This document shows positions 24,092-64,000 of a DNA stretch of 64,000 nt, in pieces; the stretch's first letter is position 1; the number at the start of each line of letters is the position of its first letter. Source of the stretch: Nocardioidaceae bacterium (lineage in GTDB: Bacteria; Actinomycetota; Actinomycetes; Propionibacteriales; Nocardioidaceae). The DNA is taken from positions 1,847,827 to 1,911,826 of the forward strand of contig CP076053.1 in the NCBI GenBank assembly GCA_018672315.1, read 5' to 3'. Position numbers and translations under genes: made by a program. The notes below the pieces were generated by a model, which was not told where the DNA came from, searched no databases, and worked only from the letters and a program-made list of their open reading frames with translations.

Positions 24092-26122
24092 ATGACCAGC
24101 ACGCTGCCCCGCACGTCCGAGTCCGTCTCCGTCGACGTCGCCCGCATGCGGCACCTGCTCGACGGCGAGTACGCCGAGATGCGCGACGTCGTGCGCGGCA
24201 AGCTCCGCGAGCACGCGGACATGGTCCAGAACGCCATCCACTTCGACACCCCGACGTACCGCCGGAAGGTGCTCGAGATGGTGCAGCAGATGGCCGGTGA
24301 GGGCCTGTGCTCCATGGGCTTCCCCGAGGAGTACGGCGGCCAGGGCGACGTCGGCGCGAACGTCGCGGCGTTCGAGACCCTCGCCTTCGGCGACCTGTCG
24401 GTGCTGGTGAAGTTCGGCGTGCAGTTCGGACTGTTCGGCGGGGCGCTGATCCAGCTGGGCACCGAGAAGCACCACGAGCGATACCTGAAGCCCACGATGG
24501 ACGGTGAGCTGCTCGGCTGCTTCGCGATGAGCGAGACCGGTCACGGCTCCAACGTGCAGCACATCGACACCACCGCGACCTACGACCTCGAGGCGCGCGA
24601 GTTCGTGCTGAACATGCCGCACGAGTACGCCGGCAAGGACTACATCGGCAACGCCGCCGAGCACGCCACGATCGCGGTCGTCTTCGCGCAGCTCGAGGTC
24701 GGCGGCGAGGGCCGCGGCGTGCACGCCTTCGTCGTGCCGATCCGCGACGAGGAGGGCGAGCCGCTGCCCGGCGTACGCATCGCCGACGACGGCCCCAAGA
24801 TCGGCCTCAACGGCGTCGACAACGGCCGCATCTGGCTCGACCACGTGCGCGTGCCGCGGGAGAACCTGCTCGACCGCTACGGCCAGGTCTCCGAGACCGG
24901 CGTGTACTCCTCGCCCATCGACAACCCCGACCGCCGCTTCTTCACGATGCTCGGCACGCTCGTGCAGGGCCGCATCTGCGTCGGCGGCGGCGGCATCTAC
25001 GCCTCCAAGGTCGCCCTGGCGATCGCGGTGGAGTACGCCCACCTGAGGCGCCAGTTCGCCACCAGCGACGACCAGCCCGAGCAGCTGCTCATCGACTACG
25101 GGCTGCACCAGCGGCGGCTGTTCCCGCTGATCGCCCGCACGTACGCCATGCACTTCGCCCAGGACCGCCTGCGCGAGGACTTCAAGAGCCTGTTCCGCTT
25201 CGACGCCGACGGCTCACGTGACGACGACGCCGAGGAGGAGCAGCGGGCGCTAGAGGCCCGCGCCGCCGGCACGAAGGCCTTCGGCACCTGGCACGCCAGC
25301 CACGTCATCCAGGAGTGCCGCGAGGCCTGCGGAGGTGCCGGCTACCTCTCGGCCAACAGGCTCGGCTCGCTGCGCGCCGACACCGACGTCTTCACCACCT
25401 TCGAGGGCGACAACCACATCCTGCTGCAGCTGGTCGCCAAGGGTCTGCTGACGAACTACTCGACGAACTTCGGTGAGCTCGACCAGATCGGCATGGCGCT
25501 GTTCGTCGGCGGCATGGCCGTCGACACCGTCATCGAGCGCACCGCGCTGCAGAAGGTCGTCGAGGGCGTCCGCGACATGCTCACCGGCGGCCCTACCGAC
25601 CACGACGTGGACTTCGACGAGGACTCGGGCGTGTACGACACCGCCTGGCACGTCAACCTGTTCCGCTACCGCGCCGATCACACCCTCGTCGGGGCGGCGC
25701 GACGGCTCAAGGCCGGCATCGACGCGGGAGAGGACCCCGGTGCGGTCTTCAGCCGCTGCCAGGACCACGTCATCAACGCGGCCCGCGCCCACGTCGAGAA
25801 GCTCATCATCGAGGACTTCGCGGCCAAGCTGCGCGAGACCGAGGGCACCCCCGAGCACGAGGCGCTGCAGCTGATGTGCGACCTGTACGCCCTGAAGGTG
25901 ATCGAGGAGCAGCGCGCGTGGTTCATGGAGCACGGCCGGCTCTCCTCGCAGCGATCGAAGGCCGTCACGAAGGCGGTCGACGTGCTGTGCCAGCGCACCC
26001 GCCCGGTCGCCCAGCAGCTGGTCGACGCCTTCGGGGTGCCCCCGGAGATGCGCGACGCCGAGATGCTCCGCCAGGCCTCCGAGGCGGAGAACCTACCCCG
26101 CCCCTCGACCTACACCGCCTGA
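24092..26122 (+). CDS. Acyl-CoA oxidase (ACOX-type acyl-CoA dehydrogenase superfamily)
   Basis: 676 residues, the length of acyl-CoA oxidases. Motifs: FAMSETGHGSNVQHIDTTATYD (ACOX-type substrate/FAD loop), IGLNGVDNGRIWLDHVRVPRENLL, CGGAGYLSANRLG and the catalytic region VFTTFEGDNHILLQLVAKGLL. The C-terminal ACOX domain extends to the end (ALKVIEEQRAWFMEHGRLSS). It oxidises acyl-CoA to trans-2-enoyl-CoA with O2 or another acceptor. ATG 24092 has TACCTC 6 nt upstream and no Shine-Dalgarno sequence, so it may be leaderless. Its TGA is followed after 4 bp by an array of 21-bp repeats. Confidence 0.87.
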   Translation: MTSTLPRTSESVSVDVARMRHLLDGEYAEMRDVVRGKLREHADMVQNAIHFDTPTYRRKVLEMVQQMAGEGLCSMGFPEEYGGQGDVGANVAAFETLAFGDLSVLVKFGVQFGLFGGALIQLGTEKHHERYLKPTMDGELLGCFAMSETGHGSNVQHIDTTATYDLEAREFVLNMPHEYAGKDYIGNAAEHATIAVVFAQLEVGGEGRGVHAFVVPIRDEEGEPLPGVRIADDGPKIGLNGVDNGRIWLDHVRVPRENLLDRYGQVSETGVYSSPIDNPDRRFFTMLGTLVQGRICVGGGGIYASKVALAIAVEYAHLRRQFATSDDQPEQLLIDYGLHQRRLFPLIARTYAMHFAQDRLREDFKSLFRFDADGSRDDDAEEEQRALEARAAGTKAFGTWHASHVIQECREACGGAGYLSANRLGSLRADTDVFTTFEGDNHILLQLVAKGLLTNYSTNFGELDQIGMALFVGGMAVDTVIERTALQKVVEGVRDMLTGGPTDHDVDFDEDSGVYDTAWHVNLFRYRADHTLVGAARRLKAGIDAGEDPGAVFSRCQDHVINAARAHVEKLIIEDFAAKLRETEGTPEHEALQLMCDLYALKVIEEQRAWFMEHGRLSSQRSKAVTKAVDVLCQRTRPVAQQLVDAFGVPPEMRDAEMLRQASEAENLPRPSTYTA

Positions 26123-26126
26123 CCCG

Positions 26127-26210
26127 CCGAGAGGGCACCACTTCAGGCCGAGAGGGCACCACTTCAGGCTCAGAGGGCACCACTTCAGGCCGAGAGGGCA
26201 TCACCTCGGG
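26127..26210 (+). repeat. Left array: four tandem 21-bp units
   Basis: Four head-to-tail units with exact 21-bp period at 26127-26147, 26148-26168, 26169-26189 and 26190-26210. Core: GAGAGGGCACCACTTC. Units 1 and 2 are identical; unit 3 has two changes at its start; unit 4 has GGCATCACCTC. No spacers, so not CRISPR. It begins 4 bp after the acyl-CoA oxidase stop and is mirrored by an inverted array at 27267-27350. Confidence 0.95.
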
Positions 26211-26315
26211 CGTCCGTCGGGCCGGTTGCTGTCCCGGCAGCGCGCGTCCGGGGCTTATCCCCCGATGCGTCCCGCTCCACTGGTCGAGGAGTCGCAGCGG
26301 CATCACGGTTTGGGC

Positions 26316-27260
26316 ATGTCCGAACTCACTGCCTCTGTCCCACCATGCACGCCTCTCCCCGCAGACCGTCCATGGACCACAGCCGAAGCACACGATCACG
26401 GTCTCTCACGTCACCACCTCGACGCGCTCATAGGTGCTGGGGCGGTCAGGCCGATGTTCAAAGGGGTGTACGTCGACGCGTCGGCCGCCGACACGCAAGC
26501 CCTCCGGCTGCAGGCGCTGAAACTCGTGGTCAAGGAGTCCTCGATCGTCGTCGACGGCACGGCCACGTGGTTCTTCGCCGGCGATCGCGCCCTGGCGCCG
26601 GGTGAGCACCGAGAGCTGCTGCCCCCGCGGGTCTTCGACGACCGGCGAGGGTGCCGCATGCGCCGCCGAGGAGTCGACAGCGGTACGCGGGACATGCGCG
26701 ACGAGGACGTGATCGAGATCGACGGTCTCCGCGTCACGACGGCTCTGCGCACCGCCACAGACGTCGCCCGTCTACAGCGCCCGCAGCGGGCCCTGGCCTC
26801 GCTCGACAGTCTGCTGGCCGCCGGAGCCGTGGACCAGCAGGAGCTGATCGAGACGCTCGAACGGTTCCGGGGCTTCCGGCACGTGGTGCGCGCGCGTTCG
26901 CTCGTACGCTGGGCAGATGGCCGGTCGGAGTCCTACGGCGAGTCGGCAGTCAGGTACGTCTGGCGGATGATCCCGGGCCTGCCGACCCCGCAGCTGCAGG
27001 TGGAGGTCCGGGTCGGTGGTCACGTCTTCCGCCTCGACCTCGCCGATGAGGACCTCAAGCTCGCATTTGAGTACGACGGCCGCGAGTTCCACGGCCCGGA
27101 CCGAGCTGAGCACGACATGTGGAGACGTGGTCTCGTCGCCGGCGAGGACTGGGCCGTCAACGTGCTGCGTGACGAGAACGTCTTCGGGCGGCAGGCGAAC
27201 GTGGAGGGCGTCCTGTCCCGAGCGTTCCGCGAGAGGCGCCGAGAGCGCCGAGGGGTGTGA
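26316..27260 (+). CDS. AbiEi-like HTH plus DUF559/Vsr-like PD-(D/E)XK nuclease-domain protein
   Basis: 314 residues. N-terminal part (about 18-60): WTTAEAHDHGLSRHHLDALIGAGAVRPMFKGVYV, the AbiEi-type winged helix found in many actinobacterial proteins. The middle resembles their second domain (IDGLRVTTALRTATDVARL). The C-terminal DUF559 nuclease fold has Glu209 in YGESAVRY, Asp241 in FRLDLAD, Glu252/Asp254 in AFEYDGREFHG, then DMWRRGLVAGEDWAVNVLR. The acidic residues fit an active PD-(D/E)XK site. ATG 26316 is chosen at the start of the conserved part; the frame is open from 26226. Base composition is visibly less GC-rich than the neighbours at its 5' end. It is the only gene between two inverted four-unit repeat arrays. 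Target unknown. Confidence 0.78.
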   Translation: MSELTASVPPCTPLPADRPWTTAEAHDHGLSRHHLDALIGAGAVRPMFKGVYVDASAADTQALRLQALKLVVKESSIVVDGTATWFFAGDRALAPGEHRELLPPRVFDDRRGCRMRRRGVDSGTRDMRDEDVIEIDGLRVTTALRTATDVARLQRPQRALASLDSLLAAGAVDQQELIETLERFRGFRHVVRARSLVRWADGRSESYGESAVRYVWRMIPGLPTPQLQVEVRVGGHVFRLDLADEDLKLAFEYDGREFHGPDRAEHDMWRRGLVAGEDWAVNVLRDENVFGRQANVEGVLSRAFRERRRERRGV

Positions 27261-27266
27261 GCAGGA

Positions 27267-27350
27267 CTCGAGGTGCTGCCCCGTCGGCCTGAAGTAGCGC
27301 CCTCTCGGCCTGAGGTGGTGCCCTCTCGGCCCGAGGTGATGCCCTCTCGG
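27267..27350 (-). repeat. Right array: four tandem 21-bp units, inverted
   Basis: Units at 27267-27287 (degenerate), 27288-27308, 27309-27329 and 27330-27350, same 21-bp period as the left array but on the opposite strand. The outermost unit (27330-27350) is the exact reverse complement of left unit 26190-26210. It ends 2 bp from the stop of the convergent ppa gene. Together with 26127-26210 it brackets the nuclease gene in an inverted arrangement. Confidence 0.95.
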
Positions 27351-27352
27351 GG

Positions 27353-27844
27353 TCAGTAGCCGCCGTTGTCCTCGTACCGCTTGAAGGAGGCGCGGACCTC
27401 CTCCTCGGCGGCGAGCCGCCCGACCCACTCGGCGCCCTCGACGGACTTGTTCGGCTCGAGGTCCTTGTAGACCTCGAAGAAGTGCTGGATCTCGAGCCGG
27501 TCGAACTTCGAGACGTGGGAGATGTCGCGCAGGTGCTGCTGGCGCGGGTCGGCCGCGGGCACGCACAACACCTTGTCGTCGCCGCCGGCCTCGTCGGTCA
27601 TGCGGAACATGCCGATCGCGCGGCAGCGGATCAGGCAGCCGGGGAACGTCGGCTCCGGCAGGATCACCAGCGCGTCCAGCGGGTCGCCGTCGAGGCCGAG
27701 GGTCTCCTCGATGAAGCCGTAGTCGGCCGGGTACTGCGTGGCGGTGAACAGGGTGCGGTCCAGACGCATGCGGTGCGTCTTGTGGTCGAGCTCGTACTTG
27801 TTGCGGTTCCCCTTGGGGATCTCCACCAGGACGTCGAACTCCAC
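27353..27844 (-). CDS. ppa: Inorganic pyrophosphatase
   Basis: 163 residues, the usual family I size. Start block [20 protein letters not shown] has the substrate-binding Glu/Lys/Arg. [22 protein letters not shown] contains the PROSITE pattern DGDPLD with metal-binding Asp residues. [13 protein letters not shown] follows, and then [13 protein letters not shown] near the C-terminus with its conserved Tyr-Lys. It hydrolyses PPi to phosphate, driving biosynthesis. GTG 27844 is chosen because the family begins at this point. Convergent with the nuclease gene; the stop codon sits 2 bp from the inverted repeat array. Confidence 0.95.
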
Positions 27845-27990
27845 CTGATCTACCCTTCTCCTACGTCGAACGCTCAGAAGCGGGCGTGCCTCACGTCGGC
27901 TCGCCGGTGCACAGTGTTGCCTATCCGTCGACCACGGGCCACCCAGGCCCCTGAACACCCCCCACCGCTGCGACCGGGTCAGGAGGCGTC

Positions 27991-36451: not shown

Positions 36452-37303
36452 ATGAGCACACCACGCGCCGGCACCCCCGCCACAGCCGCCACAGCCGCCA
36501 CCGAGCACATTTCCGGCCGGGGACGCACCGGCCACCACCCCGACCAGACCGTCGTCGAGCTGCGGCACGTCATGCGGCACTACGGCTCGAGCGACTCGGG
36601 GCCCGTCGTCCGCGCCCTCGACGACCTCAGCCTGTCCATCGCCCGCGGCGCGTTCACCGCGGTGATGGGTGCCTCCGGATCGGGAAAGTCGACCCTGATG
36701 AACGTCGCCGCGGGCCTCGACGACGTCACCGGCGGTGAGGTCCTCCTCGCGGGCAACCCGCTGCACCTGCTCGACGCGCGGCGTCGCACCGAGCTGCGCC
36801 GGGAGCACGTCGGCTTCGTCTTCCAGGCCTTCAACCTGGTGCCGGCGCTGACGGTGGAGGAGAACATCCGGCTCCCGTTCGAGCTCGCGGGTCGCGGCAC
36901 CGGGGGTGGGACCGAGGCGTGGATCGACCACCTCGTGACGGTCCTCGGTCTGGGTGAGCGCCGCGGTCACCGACCGGCCGAGCTGTCCGGCGGTCAGCAG
37001 CAGCGCGTCGCGATCGCGCGCGCCCTGGCGCCCCGGCCCGACGTCGTCTTCGCCGACGAGCCCACCGGTAACCTCGACGCCCGGTCCTCGCGCGAGGTGC
37101 TCGCCCTGCTGCGCACCGCGGCGGCGGAGTACGGGCAGAGCATCGTGATGGTCAGCCACGACCCGGTGGCCGCGTCCTACGCGGACCGTGTCGTGGTGCT
37201 GGCCGACGGCCGGGTCGTCTCGGACTCCCCGGCCCGGTCGGCCCAGCAGATCGCCTCGCTGCTGGTCGCGGTGGAGACCGGCGAGACGGGTGAGGAGCGA
37301 TGA
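36452..37303 (+). CDS. ABC transporter ATPase, MacB/LolD type
   Basis: 283 residues. A 45-residue Thr/Ala/His-rich N-terminal extension precedes the ATPase. Walker [11 protein letters not shown]-loop [17 protein letters not shown], signature [15 protein letters not shown], Walker [14 protein letters not shown] and switch His in [10 protein letters not shown] are intact. DEPTGNLD is typical of the MacB/LolD/FtsE export group. It pairs with the FtsX-like permease, whose ATG overlaps its stop. ATG 36452; likely regulated by the upstream two-component system. Confidence 0.9.
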
Positions 37304-48717: not shown

Positions 48718-51521
48718 GGCGTACGCCCCAGCCGCCCGGCCTCCCACGGTGCCTGCGGCGACAGCCCCGACCCCAGGCGGCGCGGCGGGCCGGCATGGCG
48801 GAAGTACGCCCCGGCGAGGTCCGCGGCGAGCCGCTCGAGGCAGTCGCCGACGATCTCGCCGACGGCCAGCAGGTCGACGCGTGCGGGCGCCGAGACGACA
48901 CCGTCCTCGTCCGGCTCGGAGACCGTCACCGCGGCGAGGGTCTCGGGTCCGCGGGCCCCCAGCACCCCCACGGCGTCGGTGACCTCGTTGATCATGCGCG
49001 TGGTCGTGGTGGTGCGCGGCAGGGCCTCGATCGCGGCCCGCAGGCGACGCAGCTGGAAGGCGACGGACCGGGGGTTGCCGACGTCCAGCAGCAGCAGCTC
49101 GACCAGTGAGGCCAGGTCGCCCCGGCCCGGGTAGCGCCGTCGGTGCGTCACGACGGACTCGGAGGTGAGCAGCACTGCGCGCACGAGGGCCGGCTCCACC
49201 TCGGGCGCCGAGGGCTCGCCGAACGCGCGCCGCACCAGGCGCAGCGTCGTGATGGACCGTTCCAGCGCCCGTCCCGCGTCGAGCAACTGCCAGCCGGTGT
49301 CGCGGATCATGTTCTCCGCGGTGATGCCGGTCAGCGCCAGCGTGCCGACGAGGGTCGCCGAGGCGGTCTCGCGCACCTGGACGCCGAGGGCGCGACGCGA
49401 CCCACGCGCGGACGGCCCGCCCCTGGCGCCCGGGTCGCCCGGGTCGCCCGGGTCGCCCGGGTCGGCGGGCTCGGCGAGGCGCGGCGTGCCGATCTCCTCG
49501 AGCTCGGTGCAGGCTCGCTCGACGTCGCCGAGCACGGCGAAGACGTCGCCGGAGAGCTGGTCGCGCACCGCGCCGGCGCACTGCAGCAGGTCGTCCAACG
49601 TCGCGGTCAGCGACCCGTCCCGGCCGTGGTCGACCATCAGGTCGCGCAGGCGGGCGTCCGTACGCCCCGGGGAGAACGGCAGCACCGGCCGGGTGTGCTC
49701 GGGCTCGGCGGCCGGCCCCGTCCAGGGGACCTCGTCGAAGAGCTGCTCGAGGGCGAGCAGGAGGTCCTCGATGGCGGTCTGACCGCTGGCGGAGCCGCCG
49801 TAGGAGTTCTCGTCGACCAGCGCCGAGATCGCCAGCACCAGGCGGGCGTGGGACTCCGCGCGCTCGGCGTACCGGCCGAACCAGTAGAGGTGCTCCAGCG
49901 CCCGTGGCACCACCGGCAGGTTGACCGCTCGCAGCAGCGCGCGCTCCGGCCGGGGCGGCACCACGGGGGCGGGGGTGCCGGCGGCGGCGGGCACCCAGAT
50001 GTCCTTGCTGACGGCGACGCGGTCGCGGCGTCGCGTCGTGGGGTCCAGGACGTCGGGCACGACCCGGCCGAGCCCGCCGGGCATGACGGCGTACGACCCC
50101 TCGCGCGCGACGGCGAAGAGCCGCATCGTGACCCGACGCGGTTCCAGGGCGAGGCGCGCGGCGGTCGGAGCCGTGGACAGCGGCAGCTGCTCCTGGCCGA
50201 CCCAGGCGCCGGGCTCGTCGGCCAGCCGGGCGTCCCACTCCTCTCGCCCGCCCCGGGTCAGGGAGGACCCGACGACGACCTCTCCGTGGGAGGGGTCGAC
50301 CGGGCGCAGCACCATCGAGGAGAGGTGGGCGCGTACGTGCGAGAGGTTGCGCGGCTCCCCGCACCACCACGCCGGCGCGGAGGTCAGCTGCAGGGGCTCG
50401 TCGAGGAGCGCCTCGGCCAGGTCGCCGAGCAGGGCGGTGACCGCAGGGGACTCCGCCAGCCCCGAACCCAGCGCGTTGGCCATCACCACGCTGCCGCGCC
50501 GGCAGGCCGACAGCAGACCGGGCACTCCGAGGCGGGAGTCCGGCCGCAGCTCCAACGGGTCGCACCACTCCTCCTCGATGCGGCGCACCACGACGTCGAC
50601 CTCGGTGTCGCCGGCGACGTCGCGGCTCCACAGGCGGCCGCGGTCGACCTTCAGGTCGTCGCCGGTGACCAGCGGGAGACCGAGCAGGTTGGCCAGGTGC
50701 GCCTGGTCGAAGCTGTTGTCGCCCGCGGCCCCGGGGGTGAGCACGACGACACGGGGGTCCTCGGTGCCGGCCGGTGCCAGGTCGGACAGCGCCGCGCGGA
50801 TGCGGTCGAAGAAGCCGGAGAGCCGACGCACCTCCGTGCCGCGGAACGCCTCGGGCAGCACCCGTGCGGTGACCCTGCGGTTCTCGGCGGCGAAGCCCAG
50901 GCCCCGTGGGCTCTGCGTACGGTCGGCGATGACCTGCCAGGTGCCCTCGGCCCCGCGGCCGACGTCGTGCCCGGTGAGCACCAGCCGTGGTCGACCTGCC
51001 GGCTGGGCCCCCCAGACCGGACGCAGCCGCCCCGACCAGCGCCACAGCAGCTCGGGCGGGACGAGGCCGGAGGTCAGGGTGCGACGCGCGCCGTACAGGT
51101 CGTCGAGGACGAGCTCGAGCAGCTTCGCCCGCTGCTGCAGGCCGCGCTCGAGCCAGGCCCACTCGTCGGTCTCCACGACCAGGGGGACGGGGTCCAGCCG
51201 CCAGGGGGTGAGCCGGACCGCCGAGGTCGGCGCGTTCGGGATGACTCCACCGGAGCCGAGGGGGCTCGACAGGGACAGCGGGGAGAGCGGGGCGTGGAAG
51301 ACGCCGTCGTCCTCCAGCAGGCGCGCGGCGGTGTCGCGGAAGCGGCGCAGGTCCTCACCGGACCACGTCGCCATCCCCACACGTGCCCAGGTCTCGGCGG
51401 CGTTGCCGGAGGCCCGGTCGAGCTCGTCGTACGCCTGCCCCTGCTCCTGCCCCAGCGCACGGTCACCCCGCCCCGCCGCCTCGGCGCGGGTCAGCGCGTG
51501 ACGGTAGGCCTCCTCGAGCAC
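48714..51521 (-). CDS. Circularly permuted ATP-grasp ligase fused to alpha-E domain (PF14403-DUF403)
   Basis: 935 residues. Residues about 60-500 form the circularly permuted type 2 ATP-grasp: RLTPWRLDPVPLVVETDEWAWLERGLQQRAKLLELVLDDLYG, VVVLTPGAAGDNSFDQAHLANLLGLPLVTGDDL, VDVVVRRIEEEWCDPLELRPDSRLG, GSVVMANALGSGLAESPAV. Residues about 550-930 form the alpha-E helical domain beginning LPVVPRALEHLYWFGRYAERAESHARL. In many bacteria these are two separate genes; here they are fused. GTG 51521 is chosen, 1 bp beyond the preceding TGA; an upstream GTG 51587 would run inside the previous gene with no conserved residues. A 9-bp tandem repeat (49432-49467) encodes a PGD linker in the alpha-E part. Predicted peptide or amino-acid ligase. 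Confidence 0.85.
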   Translation of the reverse strand: MLEEAYRHALTRAEAAGRGDRALGQEQGQAYDELDRASGNAAETWARVGMATWSGEDLRRFRDTAARLLEDDGVFHAPLSPLSLSSPLGSGGVIPNAPTSAVRLTPWRLDPVPLVVETDEWAWLERGLQQRAKLLELVLDDLYGARRTLTSGLVPPELLWRWSGRLRPVWGAQPAGRPRLVLTGHDVGRGAEGTWQVIADRTQSPRGLGFAAENRRVTARVLPEAFRGTEVRRLSGFFDRIRAALSDLAPAGTEDPRVVVLTPGAAGDNSFDQAHLANLLGLPLVTGDDLKVDRGRLWSRDVAGDTEVDVVVRRIEEEWCDPLELRPDSRLGVPGLLSACRRGSVVMANALGSGLAESPAVTALLGDLAEALLDEPLQLTSAPAWWCGEPRNLSHVRAHLSSMVLRPVDPSHGEVVVGSSLTRGGREEWDARLADEPGAWVGQEQLPLSTAPTAARLALEPRRVTMRLFAVAREGSYAVMPGGLGRVVPDVLDPTTRRRDRVAVSKDIWVPAAAGTPAPVVPPRPERALLRAVNLPVVPRALEHLYWFGRYAERAESHARLVLAISALVDENSYGGSASGQTAIEDLLLALEQLFDEVPWTGPAAEPEHTRPVLPFSPGRTDARLRDLMVDHGRDGSLTATLDDLLQCAGAVRDQLSGDVFAVLGDVERACTELEEIGTPRLAEPADPGDPGDPGDPGARGGPSARGSRRALGVQVRETASATLVGTLALTGITAENMIRDTGWQLLDAGRALERSITTLRLVRRAFGEPSAPEVEPALVRAVLLTSESVVTHRRRYPGRGDLASLVELLLLDVGNPRSVAFQLRRLRAAIEALPRTTTTTRMINEVTDAVGVLGARGPETLAAVTVSEPDEDGVVSAPARVDLLAVGEIVGDCLERLAADLAGAYFRHAGPPRRLGSGLSPQAPWEAGRLGRTP
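49432..49467 (-). repeat. In-frame 9-bp tandem repeat encoding a Pro-Gly-Asp linker
   Basis: GGGTCGCCC at 49432-49440, 49441-49449 and 49450-49458, followed by a partial fourth copy. It lies inside the alpha-E domain and encodes PGDPGDPGDPG. In-frame slippage here would only change loop length. Confidence 0.85.
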
Positions 51522-58110: not shown

Positions 58111-58151
58111 CGAGAGGGCACACAGTTGCGCCTGATCGGGTGCCCTCTCGG
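58111..58151. repeat. 21-bp repeat pair, head-to-head hairpin
   Basis: CGAGAGGGCAC (58111-58121) pairs perfectly with GTGCCCTCTCG (58140-58150), 18-nt loop. The right half (58131-58151) is a full 21-bp unit of the family at 27267-27350 with a few changes; the left half is a diverged forward unit. It starts at the base after the binding-protein stop, so it is a likely terminator. Confidence 0.85.
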
Positions 58152-63396: not shown

Positions 63397-64000
63397 CAGC
63401 GCGGGCTGTCCTGGCCGCCCTGGCCGCCCTCGCCGCCCTGGCCGCCCTGGGCTCGCCGGGCGGCCTGCTGCCGCAGACGTACGTCGAGTCCTTCGCGACG
63501 GATCCGCACGTCGATGTACTGCAGGGCGACCACGGCACCGACGAAGGGCGTGGCCAACGCGCCGGAGACCACCGCGGAGAGGTTGTCGGAGACCAGCACG
63601 AGCACGGTGCCCCACGTGTCGTCGCCGAGGAGGAACAGGCTGGCCACACCGATCAGGCTCAGCGGGATCGAGACGATGGAGGCCACGAGGTACGCCGTCA
63701 CGCTGATCAGCAGGTAGATGCCGAGCAGACGCCAGAAGCTGCCACGACTCAGGGTGCGGCTGCGGCGCGCCGACGCGACCACGCCGGAGCCCTCCAGCAC
63801 CAGGACGCAGGGGGCGAGCAGGAAGAAGCGCGTCCAGAACCACACGACGGCGACGAACGCACCGACCCCGAGCACGACCCCGGTCAGCGCCCCCACCACG
63901 GTGCCGGCGGCCGCGGTGACGGCGACGGCGACGCCGACCACGACAGCCGTCGCCACCAGGGGGAGGAGACCCGAGACGATCGTGAGGCCGAGCAGGCGCC
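63396..64000 (-). CDS. Multi-span membrane protein, truncated at window end
   Basis: The frame is open to the window edge, giving 200 C-terminal residues. Spans include TAVVVGVAVAVTAAAGTVVGALTG, VLGVGAFVAVVWFWTRFFLLAPCVLVLEG, LLGIYLLISVTAYLVASIVSIPLSLIG and LSAVVSGALATPFVGAVVALQYIDVRIRREGLDV. The end YIDVRIRREGLD is typical of membrane proteins related to the glycerophosphodiesterase membrane domain that precede DUF4129 genes. It ends with a Gly/Gln repeat encoded by 9-bp units (63411-63446). The start lies beyond 64000. Confidence 0.75.
   Translation of the reverse strand, partial: RLLGLTIVSGLLPLVATAVVVGVAVAVTAAAGTVVGALTGVVLGVGAFVAVVWFWTRFFLLAPCVLVLEGSGVVASARRSRTLSRGSFWRLLGIYLLISVTAYLVASIVSIPLSLIGVASLFLLGDDTWGTVLVLVSDNLSAVVSGALATPFVGAVVALQYIDVRIRREGLDVRLRQQAARRAQGGQGGEGGQGGQDSPR
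63411..63446 (-). repeat. In-frame 9-bp tandem repeat (Gly-Gly-Gln/Glu tail)
   Basis: Four 9-bp units: CTGGCCGCC at 63411, 63420 and 63438, and CTCGCCGCC at 63429. They encode the GGQGGEGGQGGQ tail of the membrane protein. Confidence 0.85.

Follow-up and report, generated by a model that had tools for sequence, protein, structure and literature searches.

What is a single nuclease gene doing between two inverted arrays of a short repeat? We consider a 1,224-bp element in the genome of a bacterium from the Nocardioidaceae (assembly GCA_018672315.1, contig CP076053.1, positions 1,847,827 to 1,911,826 of the forward strand). This stretch of 64,000 nucleotides is what we call the window, and coordinates are positions within it unless another locus or the genome is named. 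Four 21-bp units (core CCGAGAGGGCAC) lie in tandem on the + strand at 26127-26210, and four more lie inverted, on the - strand, at 27267-27350. Between them are 1,056 bp that hold a single gene, whose predicted product combines an AbiEi-like half with a Vsr-like nuclease half. Our results support a link between nuclease genes of this kind and inverted arrays that is both systematic and sequence-specific. The explanation that we favor, and that we consider somewhat better than an even bet, is an enzyme-repeat pair: a single-gene nuclease would have its own family of short repeats, in arrays that bracket the gene and in copies at other genes' 3' ends, and these would have been spread by the enzyme.

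An earlier note on this DNA had described four plus four inverted units around one gene, and both Tandem Repeats Finder and the complementarity of the arms bear this out. The program reports a period of 21 for the left array (26126-26211, 4.1 copies, 89% matches, score 137) and for the right array (27270-27350, 3.9 copies, 81% matches, score 106), and these are the top two scores among the 16 rows that it gives for the window. Across 82 nt (26127-26208 and 27269-27350), the arms have 87% complementarity. Also, the left unit at 26190-26210 is indeed the exact reverse complement of the outermost right unit, with 100% complementarity across 22 nt (26190-26211 and 27329-27350). The note's description of the arrays as exact tandems holds for their spacing but not for their sequences, as the units are not all identical: the left array has CCGAGAGGGCACCACTTCAGG twice, then CTCAGAGGGCACCACTTCAGG and CCGAGAGGGCATCACCTCGGG, while the right array, read on the - strand, has CCGAGAGGGCATCACCTCGGG, CCGAGAGGGCACCACCTCAGG, CCGAGAGGGCGCTACTTCAGG, and CCGACGGGGCAGCACCTCGAG. 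The core 9-mer SAGAGGGCA occurs eight times in the window, as compared to a mean of 1.45 and a maximum of 6 in 100 shuffles.

Inverted repeats beside homologues of the nuclease

The bacterium's own genome (3.6 Mb, one contig) encodes eight members of the nuclease family, including the window protein. Our bracketing score comes from aligning each gene's 5' flank to the reverse complement of its 3' flank. Five of the eight genes score 113 (the window), 102, 111, 49, and 36, and the remaining three score 29, 26, and 18, while all 56 of 56 mismatched pairs of flanks from this genome score 30 or less. Each of the five bracketed homologues has a different repeat. For example, a sister gene (59% identity; L032, at about 1357700-1358950 of the genome) lies between inverted arrays of a 17-bp unit that includes CGAGGGGTCACTTC, at about 1196-1315 and 2365-2450 of that locus. 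Three more distant homologues in this genome (L058, L059, and L060) have inverted flanking repeats of three further sequences, and each flank of L058 and of L060 is itself a palindromic pair.

The earlier note had proposed to look in relatives for repeats that cluster around such genes, and we do find this link, with units that are specific to each locus. A homologue is present at E = 1e-20 or better in 19 of 38 related genomes. These genomes, from related genera, have 28 loci, of which 25 have bracketing scores of at least 40 (as compared to 41.5 for the 99th percentile among 756 mismatched pairs). We also considered the best 80 of 110 relatives, from Nocardioides, Marmoricola, Aeromicrobium, Kribbella, Williamsia, Gordonia, Thermobifida, Actinomadura, and other genera; three of these (L148, L159, and L165) had too little flanking sequence and were skipped, which leaves 77 loci. 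Of these 77 named loci, 63 score at least 40. The corresponding counts for the controls are 3 of 790 positions taken at random within these loci, 20 of 924 mismatched pairs, and, when the flanks are compared in the direct orientation, 3 of the 77 loci.

The link extends across the class Actinomycetes, where 57 of 118 sampled genomes have a match to PF18741 (REase_MTES_1575) at E = 1e-6 or better (this includes the bacterium's own genome and counts large multi-domain proteins). From about 80 listed matches to PF18741, we picked 40 of single-gene size by hand, in order of E value with gaps; one of them, at the end of a contig (L351), was dropped. If either orientation is allowed, 29 of the 39 loci are bracketed (20/39 inverted and 26/39 direct), as compared to 2 of 1300 mismatched pairs between families, and 11 of 13 other families have at least one bracketed locus. 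Six more loci were added later, one of which (L324) has a 5' flank of only 103 nt; three of the six are bracketed, for a total of 32 of 45. Because mismatched pairs include close relatives, the tails of these controls are inflated: the maxima are 367 for the related genera, 410 for the named loci, and 435 for the class-wide set, and if all of the class-wide mismatched pairs are counted, 22 of 1482 reach 40 in the inverted orientation.

The flanks in the class-wide set often contain palindromic units and are nearer to classical repetitive extragenic palindromes (REPs). For example, six loci of one family (f23: L339, L345, L347, L350, L353, and L357) have flanking palindromes of the form GATCATGG...CCATGATC that are similar between genomes, and L356 (f31) and L366 (f33) have units of GTGATCATGCA.

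The period of the arrays goes along with the enzyme as well. Among 93 arms above the 99% level of the null, 61 have periods of 21-22 bp, 20 have periods of 31-33 bp, and 10 have periods of 42-45 bp, which are doubles; the other two have periods of 10 and 19 bp, and none lies at 23-30 bp. The main periods correspond approximately to two or three helical turns. (In the 31-bp unit of N. pini, about 23 positions are conserved and 8 are variable.) Period clusters on the enzyme tree, with 9 changes versus a mean of 21.0 when shuffled and 0 of 200 shuffles as low, although near-copies on the tree add to this clustering. Furthermore, at ten loci from the Nocardioides group, the two arms of a locus resemble each other (mean 0.63) more than arms do between species (0.27 for left with left and 0.31 for right with right), and at 10 of 10 loci the arm's own partner is closer than the mean of the other species.

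One could imagine that the arrays are ordinary terminators of the genome that would bracket any gene between convergent genes. This idea is disfavored by the positional control (3/790), which used random positions and was not limited to genes between convergent neighbors, and by the matching of each repeat to the genome of its own nuclease.

Copies of the repeats behind other genes

The 21-bp repeat is found far beyond the element. That it might be private to a cassette is ruled out by 113 sites for SAGAGGGCA in the bacterium's genome, versus 48 for the reversed pattern, and by arrays behind the stop codons of other genes. A search of this genome with the whole element gave 231 candidates, of which we scored 40. 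Besides the element itself and the paralogue (69% identity), it found extra places at 73-88% identity. We inspected 37 places in the genome by eye. The recurring core is mostly in 21-bp tandem arrays that share GCCGAGAGGGCAC, and the rest of the unit is more variable. Several single matches, among the 20 places in one inspected set, are plainly chance matches within genes.

The dispersed arrays usually lie directly behind stop codons, and they face each other between convergent genes. Of the 31 arrays with at least two units, 24 are behind a gene on the same strand, all of them at -1 to 7 bp from the stop codon, as judged by a home-built gene caller that was trained on the codon usage of 33 open reading frames of the window. 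Beyond the two nuclease loci, 9 of 19 array loci in this genome have two facing arrays (at least two units each) with no large gene between them. We also considered whether any gene between two arrays of one family might be a mobile cassette. We rejected this, as three such places (L252, L257, and L241) hold ordinary frames, which from their translations we named by eye as lytic transglycosylase-like, cobalamin-type, and regulator/SRPBCC-like, and these look like arrays at gene ends.

The window has a solitary inverted pair of single units at 58112-58149 (no strand assigned), with GAGAGGGCA on the + strand at 58112-58120 and on the - strand at 58141-58149. One of these units is directly behind a stop codon, and the pair is a minimal dispersed copy of the window repeat.

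Some copies lie within coding sequence. At about 2749060 of the genome (L029, 625-2211), two units lie in frame between squalene/phytoene synthase and NUDIX domains of one open reading frame, as if an array free of stop codons had joined two genes or had entered the linker of a fusion. Two 21-bp units lie within a gene with a SWIM domain (L025). At about 1197960 (L040, 824-2203), the linker between the E3-binding and catalytic domains of a 2-oxoacid dehydrogenase acyltransferase has in-frame units of the 17-bp family.

Is each repeat abundant where its own nuclease is? We searched 15 genomes for five repeats. (G006 and G044 had the same number of sites at the same places and are probably one genome, which would leave 14 distinct ones.) The N. 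pini repeat has 81 sites in the N. pini genome and 0-6 elsewhere. The Williamsia repeat has 117 and 72 sites in the two genomes whose nucleases carry it (L162 and L163) and 0-2 elsewhere; we placed L163 in the genome of L168 (G042) by their common record prefix. The 17-bp repeat has 89 sites in the bacterium's own genome and 0-4 in the 14 others. The 21-bp core has 103 sites in the own genome and 7-31 elsewhere, except for 68 sites in one genome (G004), of which 55 read GCCGAGAGGTCAC, the unit beside that genome's own nuclease (L082). Finally, the N. daejeonensis repeat has 104 sites in its own genome versus 11-36 elsewhere, with 3 mismatches allowed; among the matches listed, 12 sites are exact and 24 have one mismatch. 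These copies, too, are often behind stop codons on the same strand: 21 of 24 arrays in N. pini, where the distance is exactly 3 bp for 12 of them, and 18 of 27 in N. daejeonensis. The arrays of these two genomes were chosen by hand from the matches listed, and so they indicate where copies are located and not how many there are.

Given these locations, the arrays might be operators and terminators: the AbiEi-like half would repress its own gene via the left array, the dispersed copies would end convergent genes, and the nuclease would cause no movement. AbiEi and Rv2827c are described as repressing their own operons through 23-bp repeats (PMC7319586), and in the 11 loci that we displayed, the left array lies about 100-190 bp ahead of the matched start of the nuclease gene. 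The position of most dispersed arrays right after stop codons, often facing between convergent genes, is also as expected. Nevertheless, a self-repressing gene has no need of a second, inverted array, of about 100 copies elsewhere, or of copies inside genes, and the units within coding sequence speak against a purely terminator role. Selection for terminators would not couple one repeat to one nuclease gene, either. So we consider this explanation to be quite unlikely.

The genomic site and the predicted protein

Convergent neighbors are typical of these nuclease genes: 47 of 53 called loci have them, versus 66 of 429 other genes of 700-1200 bp. (The called loci leave out 27 of 80 nucleases, 23 of which were missed by the gene caller and 4 of which are at an edge.) In the window, the left neighbor is an acyl-CoA oxidase gene (24092-26122, + strand; this is the called start, and the frame is open from 23948), and the left array starts 4 nt past its stop codon (26120-26122). 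The right neighbor is the inorganic pyrophosphatase gene, ppa (27353-27958, - strand), and the right array starts 2 nt past its stop codon (27353-27355). The earlier note had offered, as an alternative, that the arrays belong to the ends of these flanking genes. The arrays do follow stop codons, and because the stop codons of other genes bear arrays in the same way, the two arrays in the window are not private to the nuclease; the nuclease is nonetheless tied to the repeat. As to a target-site duplication, the bases just outside the two arms are the stop codon context of two different genes, and the only empty sites for comparison are from other genera. No tRNA or tmRNA that could have served as a target was detected within the window.

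Among 36 other genomes with ppa, we examined 29 ppa loci, and in 25 of these we saw no oxidase within the stretch that was covered. In the other 4 of 29, from four related genera, the oxidase is beside ppa, with gaps of 65, 93, 104, and 110 bp. None of the 29 loci has a match to the nuclease, and on reading the four oxidase-ppa gaps we saw no tandem arrays of the window kind. These four junctions are empty sites, in other genera, of the sort that the earlier note had suggested to look for. It had taken repeats spread across the genome, with no link to the nuclease and no empty sites, as a sign that its cassette idea was wrong; the repeats are indeed genome-wide, but the link and the empty sites are both present. 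One of the four gaps has a different inverted repeat, of the GGTTTCACTnGGTACCTAGTGAAACC type (L274, about 1384-1500), which is perhaps an unrelated REP-like element.

These junctions bear on a second explanation, which is that the repeats spread by other means and the nuclease is a homing-type lodger that lands in, and recognizes, pairs of inverted arrays. Insertion into a facing pair would yield exactly the bracketing that is seen, and the nine facing pairs without a large gene could be such landing places. Also, the nuclease gene is absent from the oxidase-ppa site of the four related genera. However, these empty sites lack such arrays, so they do not show that the arrays came first. Across the five repeats and 15 genomes, the abundant repeat is the one beside the genome's own nuclease, while for a pure lodger we would expect a single, widespread repeat in common, and it is the enzyme tree that the period follows. 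We see a lodger as possible but unlikely.

At ten loci from the Nocardioides group, the nuclease lies between the same two gene ends, with differing units. Keeping one site in ten genomes might mean that the pair is domesticated and useful to its host, with the nuclease keeping the arrays uniform, for example as a protection against colliding transcription or for the organization of the nucleoid. The conservation of residues across homologues and the tight distance to stop codons would fit as well. On the other hand, closely related species have different repeats, the orthologous junctions seen elsewhere lack them, and the copies inside genes look like tolerated damage. It seems very unlikely to us that usefulness to the host is the explanation.

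The nuclease gene itself (26316-27260, + strand) encodes 314 amino acids if it begins with the ATG at 26316, which is the more likely start of the open reading frame at 26226-27260; the frame is open back to a TTG at 26226. Its 5' end is less GC-rich than the rest, as had been noticed before (0.643 for 26316-26500 versus 0.703 for 26501-27257, with 0.736 for the window). The AlphaFold model of the protein has a pLDDT of 93.1 and a pTM of 0.89. Residues 7-201 (26334-26918, + strand) form an AbiEi-antitoxin-like half that is predicted to bind DNA: it matches the fold of AbiEi (6y8q_A; VIA-align Z 10.4, rmsd 8.8, 181 residues aligned; Foldseek E = 3.8e-5), with the high rmsd implying that the two AbiEi-like domains are probably set at a different angle, and it matches a PADLOC model of AbiEi (E = 9.3e-11). 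Residues 206-309 (26931-27242, + strand) form a Vsr/EDxHD-like nuclease half, with a fold close to that of I-Bth0305I (3r3p_A; VIA-align Z 12.8, rmsd 2.1, 95 residues aligned of a 97-residue chain) and of Vsr (1cw0_A; Z 10.3). VIA-align re-scores Foldseek's own matches, so the lack of other folds among its results is no evidence. In an alignment of 24 homologues, S206, E209, E252, D254, H259, D267, R270, and R271 are invariant and D241 is nearly so; in a second set, of 46 homologues, S206, E209, H259, D267, and R270 are invariant and D241 and E252 are nearly so. We infer that the conserved residues in the nuclease half form the active site.

The label DUF559/Vsr-like, which the earlier note had given to this protein, does not come from Pfam for the window protein: its one match is to AbiEi_4, at E = 0.008 and under the cut-off, with no match of the DUF559 or Vsr type, and at E = 0.01 it matches neither PF18741 nor DUF559 (PF04480). 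The label does fit the predicted fold and the matches of its relatives, as 17 of the 24 aligned homologues match PF18741 and 7 of the 24 match PF04480 at E = 0.01 or better. NCBIfam gave no useful name for five homologues.

The PADLOC match might instead suggest an anti-phage or toxin-antitoxin gene that lies among terminator repeats by chance. But the neighbors are the acyl-CoA oxidase and ppa, with no AbiEii toxin, and chance would leave the link to the repeat unexplained. We consider this extremely unlikely. What the protein shares with the AbiEi antitoxins of type IV systems is the two-domain fold of its first half, and those antitoxins are reported to bind 23-bp repeats with cognate specificity: the two that were studied did not bind each other's sites (PMC7319586). 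Unlike an AbiE toxin-antitoxin system, it has no adjacent AbiEii nucleotidyltransferase toxin, it has an extra nuclease half, and its sites are genome-wide.

A candidate mechanism and known systems

How could an enzyme of this kind spread a repeat? We infer binding, cutting, and spread by the nuclease, in what is the simplest model to cover these results. The AbiEi-like half would bind one unit per protein, and units that are two or three helical turns apart would let several copies of the protein act from the same side of the helix. The nuclease half would then cut at or near the array, and repair templated by another array would spread, lengthen, and homogenize the repeat, with the gene sometimes carried along with the copied repeat. 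Inserts would persist where they do the least harm, which would be immediately past stop codons and, in many cases, in the space between convergent genes. Such "homing repeats," in which an AbiEi-guided nuclease of the Vsr or homing type cuts its own units and repair copies them to new places and builds tandem arrays with a spacing of two or three helical turns, would be a double-strand-break counterpart of REPs and their REP-associated tyrosine transposases (RAYTs). The enzyme and the unit would change together while the copies within a genome are kept alike. Homing repeats as a class of selfish or domesticated systems that is widespread in Actinomycetes seem to us about as likely as not.

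Several results weigh against this mechanism or against the enzyme-repeat pair. First, some nuclease genes have no bracketing at our threshold, namely 14 of the 77 named loci, 3 of the 28 loci from related genera, and 13 of the 45 loci in the class-wide set; these include 4 of 6 rows from the Kribbella clade and both Actinomadura loci. Second, some arrays have no stop codon upstream on the same strand: 9 of 27 in N. daejeonensis and 7 of 31 in the bacterium's own genome (3 called as within genes, of which the one at L026 is probably an error of the gene caller, and 4 others). Third, the reversed control for the N. daejeonensis repeat has 53 sites in that genome, with 3 mismatches allowed, so the contrast with 104 sites is soft, and the repeats that we searched for all come from genomes that carry a nuclease. 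Fourth, the paralogue has a period of 17 bp, which does not correspond to a whole number of helical turns. Fifth, at 4 of the 10 Nocardioides-group loci, there is a single other species that is as close as the arm's own partner or closer, so the likeness of the arms is a trend over the set; recombination between inverted repeats could also produce this likeness without a nuclease. Sixth, the sequence matches to I-Bth0305I and Vsr-like chains in the PDB are weak (E = 0.058-0.9), so the assignment of the nuclease rests on the predicted fold. Finally, one kept site in ten loci means that the gene is not hopping freely there, and its movement looks rare in the Nocardioides group.

The earlier note had drawn a parallel to REP-associated transposases, and the anatomy fits: there are dispersed copies, at 3' ends, in convergent pairs, and sometimes in genes (PMC3733652). 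As in the REPtrons and TIRtrons of REP/RAYT systems, a single enzyme gene is flanked by a short repeat in inverted orientation, and the genome contains dispersed copies of this repeat as well (PMC3733652 and PMC8266576). Copies of REPs are likewise described as lying close behind stop codons, between convergent or unidirectional genes, and sometimes within genes, with a match between enzyme and repeat (PMC3733652). The enzymes are different: RAYTs are described as HUH tyrosine enzymes that process single-stranded repeats, while here we have an AbiEi-like/Vsr-like nuclease. Its predicted fold differs from that of an HUH (IS200/IS605-like) Y1 transposase, and no HUH model is among the Pfam matches. 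The repeats differ as well, as the Nocardioidaceae and Williamsia loci that we displayed have oriented tandem arrays and not the single or hairpin palindromes of REPs; more distant homologues do have palindromic units nearby (L058, L060, and several of L329-L368). The units displayed for the window, the Nocardioidaceae, and Williamsia thus do not have the form of REPs, which are short palindromes with a GTAG-type tag, although no systematic scan for this tag was made.

The nuclease half shares its fold with Vsr and with the homing endonuclease I-Bth0305I, of the family named EDxHD in PMC3943268. Homing endonucleases, including those of the EDxHD family, are said there to be what makes their own reading frames mobile (PMC3943268). 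Unlike I-Bth0305I or Vsr, the window protein has an AbiEi-like half attached, its gene is intergenic and does not interrupt a host gene, and it has a dispersed family of repeats. MTES_1575 is said to be a Vsr-type domain within a large conflict protein that has many domains, and the account of it in PMC3710099 makes no mention of repeats (our statement is limited to that account). We found no description of a single-gene nuclease of the DUF559, AbiEi, or Vsr type that is linked to flanking or dispersed repeats, in a literature search that was short on subscription papers and is not proof. Among the known kinds that we found, none pairs such an enzyme with dispersed repeats, while the overall logic of the pairing resembles that of REPtrons.

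These results suggest a previously undescribed route for the spread of repeated DNA in soil actinobacteria. DUF559, AbiEi, and MTES_1575 genes are frequent in the genomes of actinobacteria; if their single-gene forms act as the enzymes of dispersed repeats, these genes would have a job and the repeats would have an origin. How extragenic repeats spread without an ordinary transposase is a long-standing question, which could then be tested in each species with a single protein and a single oligonucleotide. The many natural pairs of enzyme and unit would also be a data set on DNA recognition by AbiEi-type domains.

The window contains further short tandem repeats, with a period of 9 bp (27 bp), at 36477-36501, 49427-49464, and 63402-63467.

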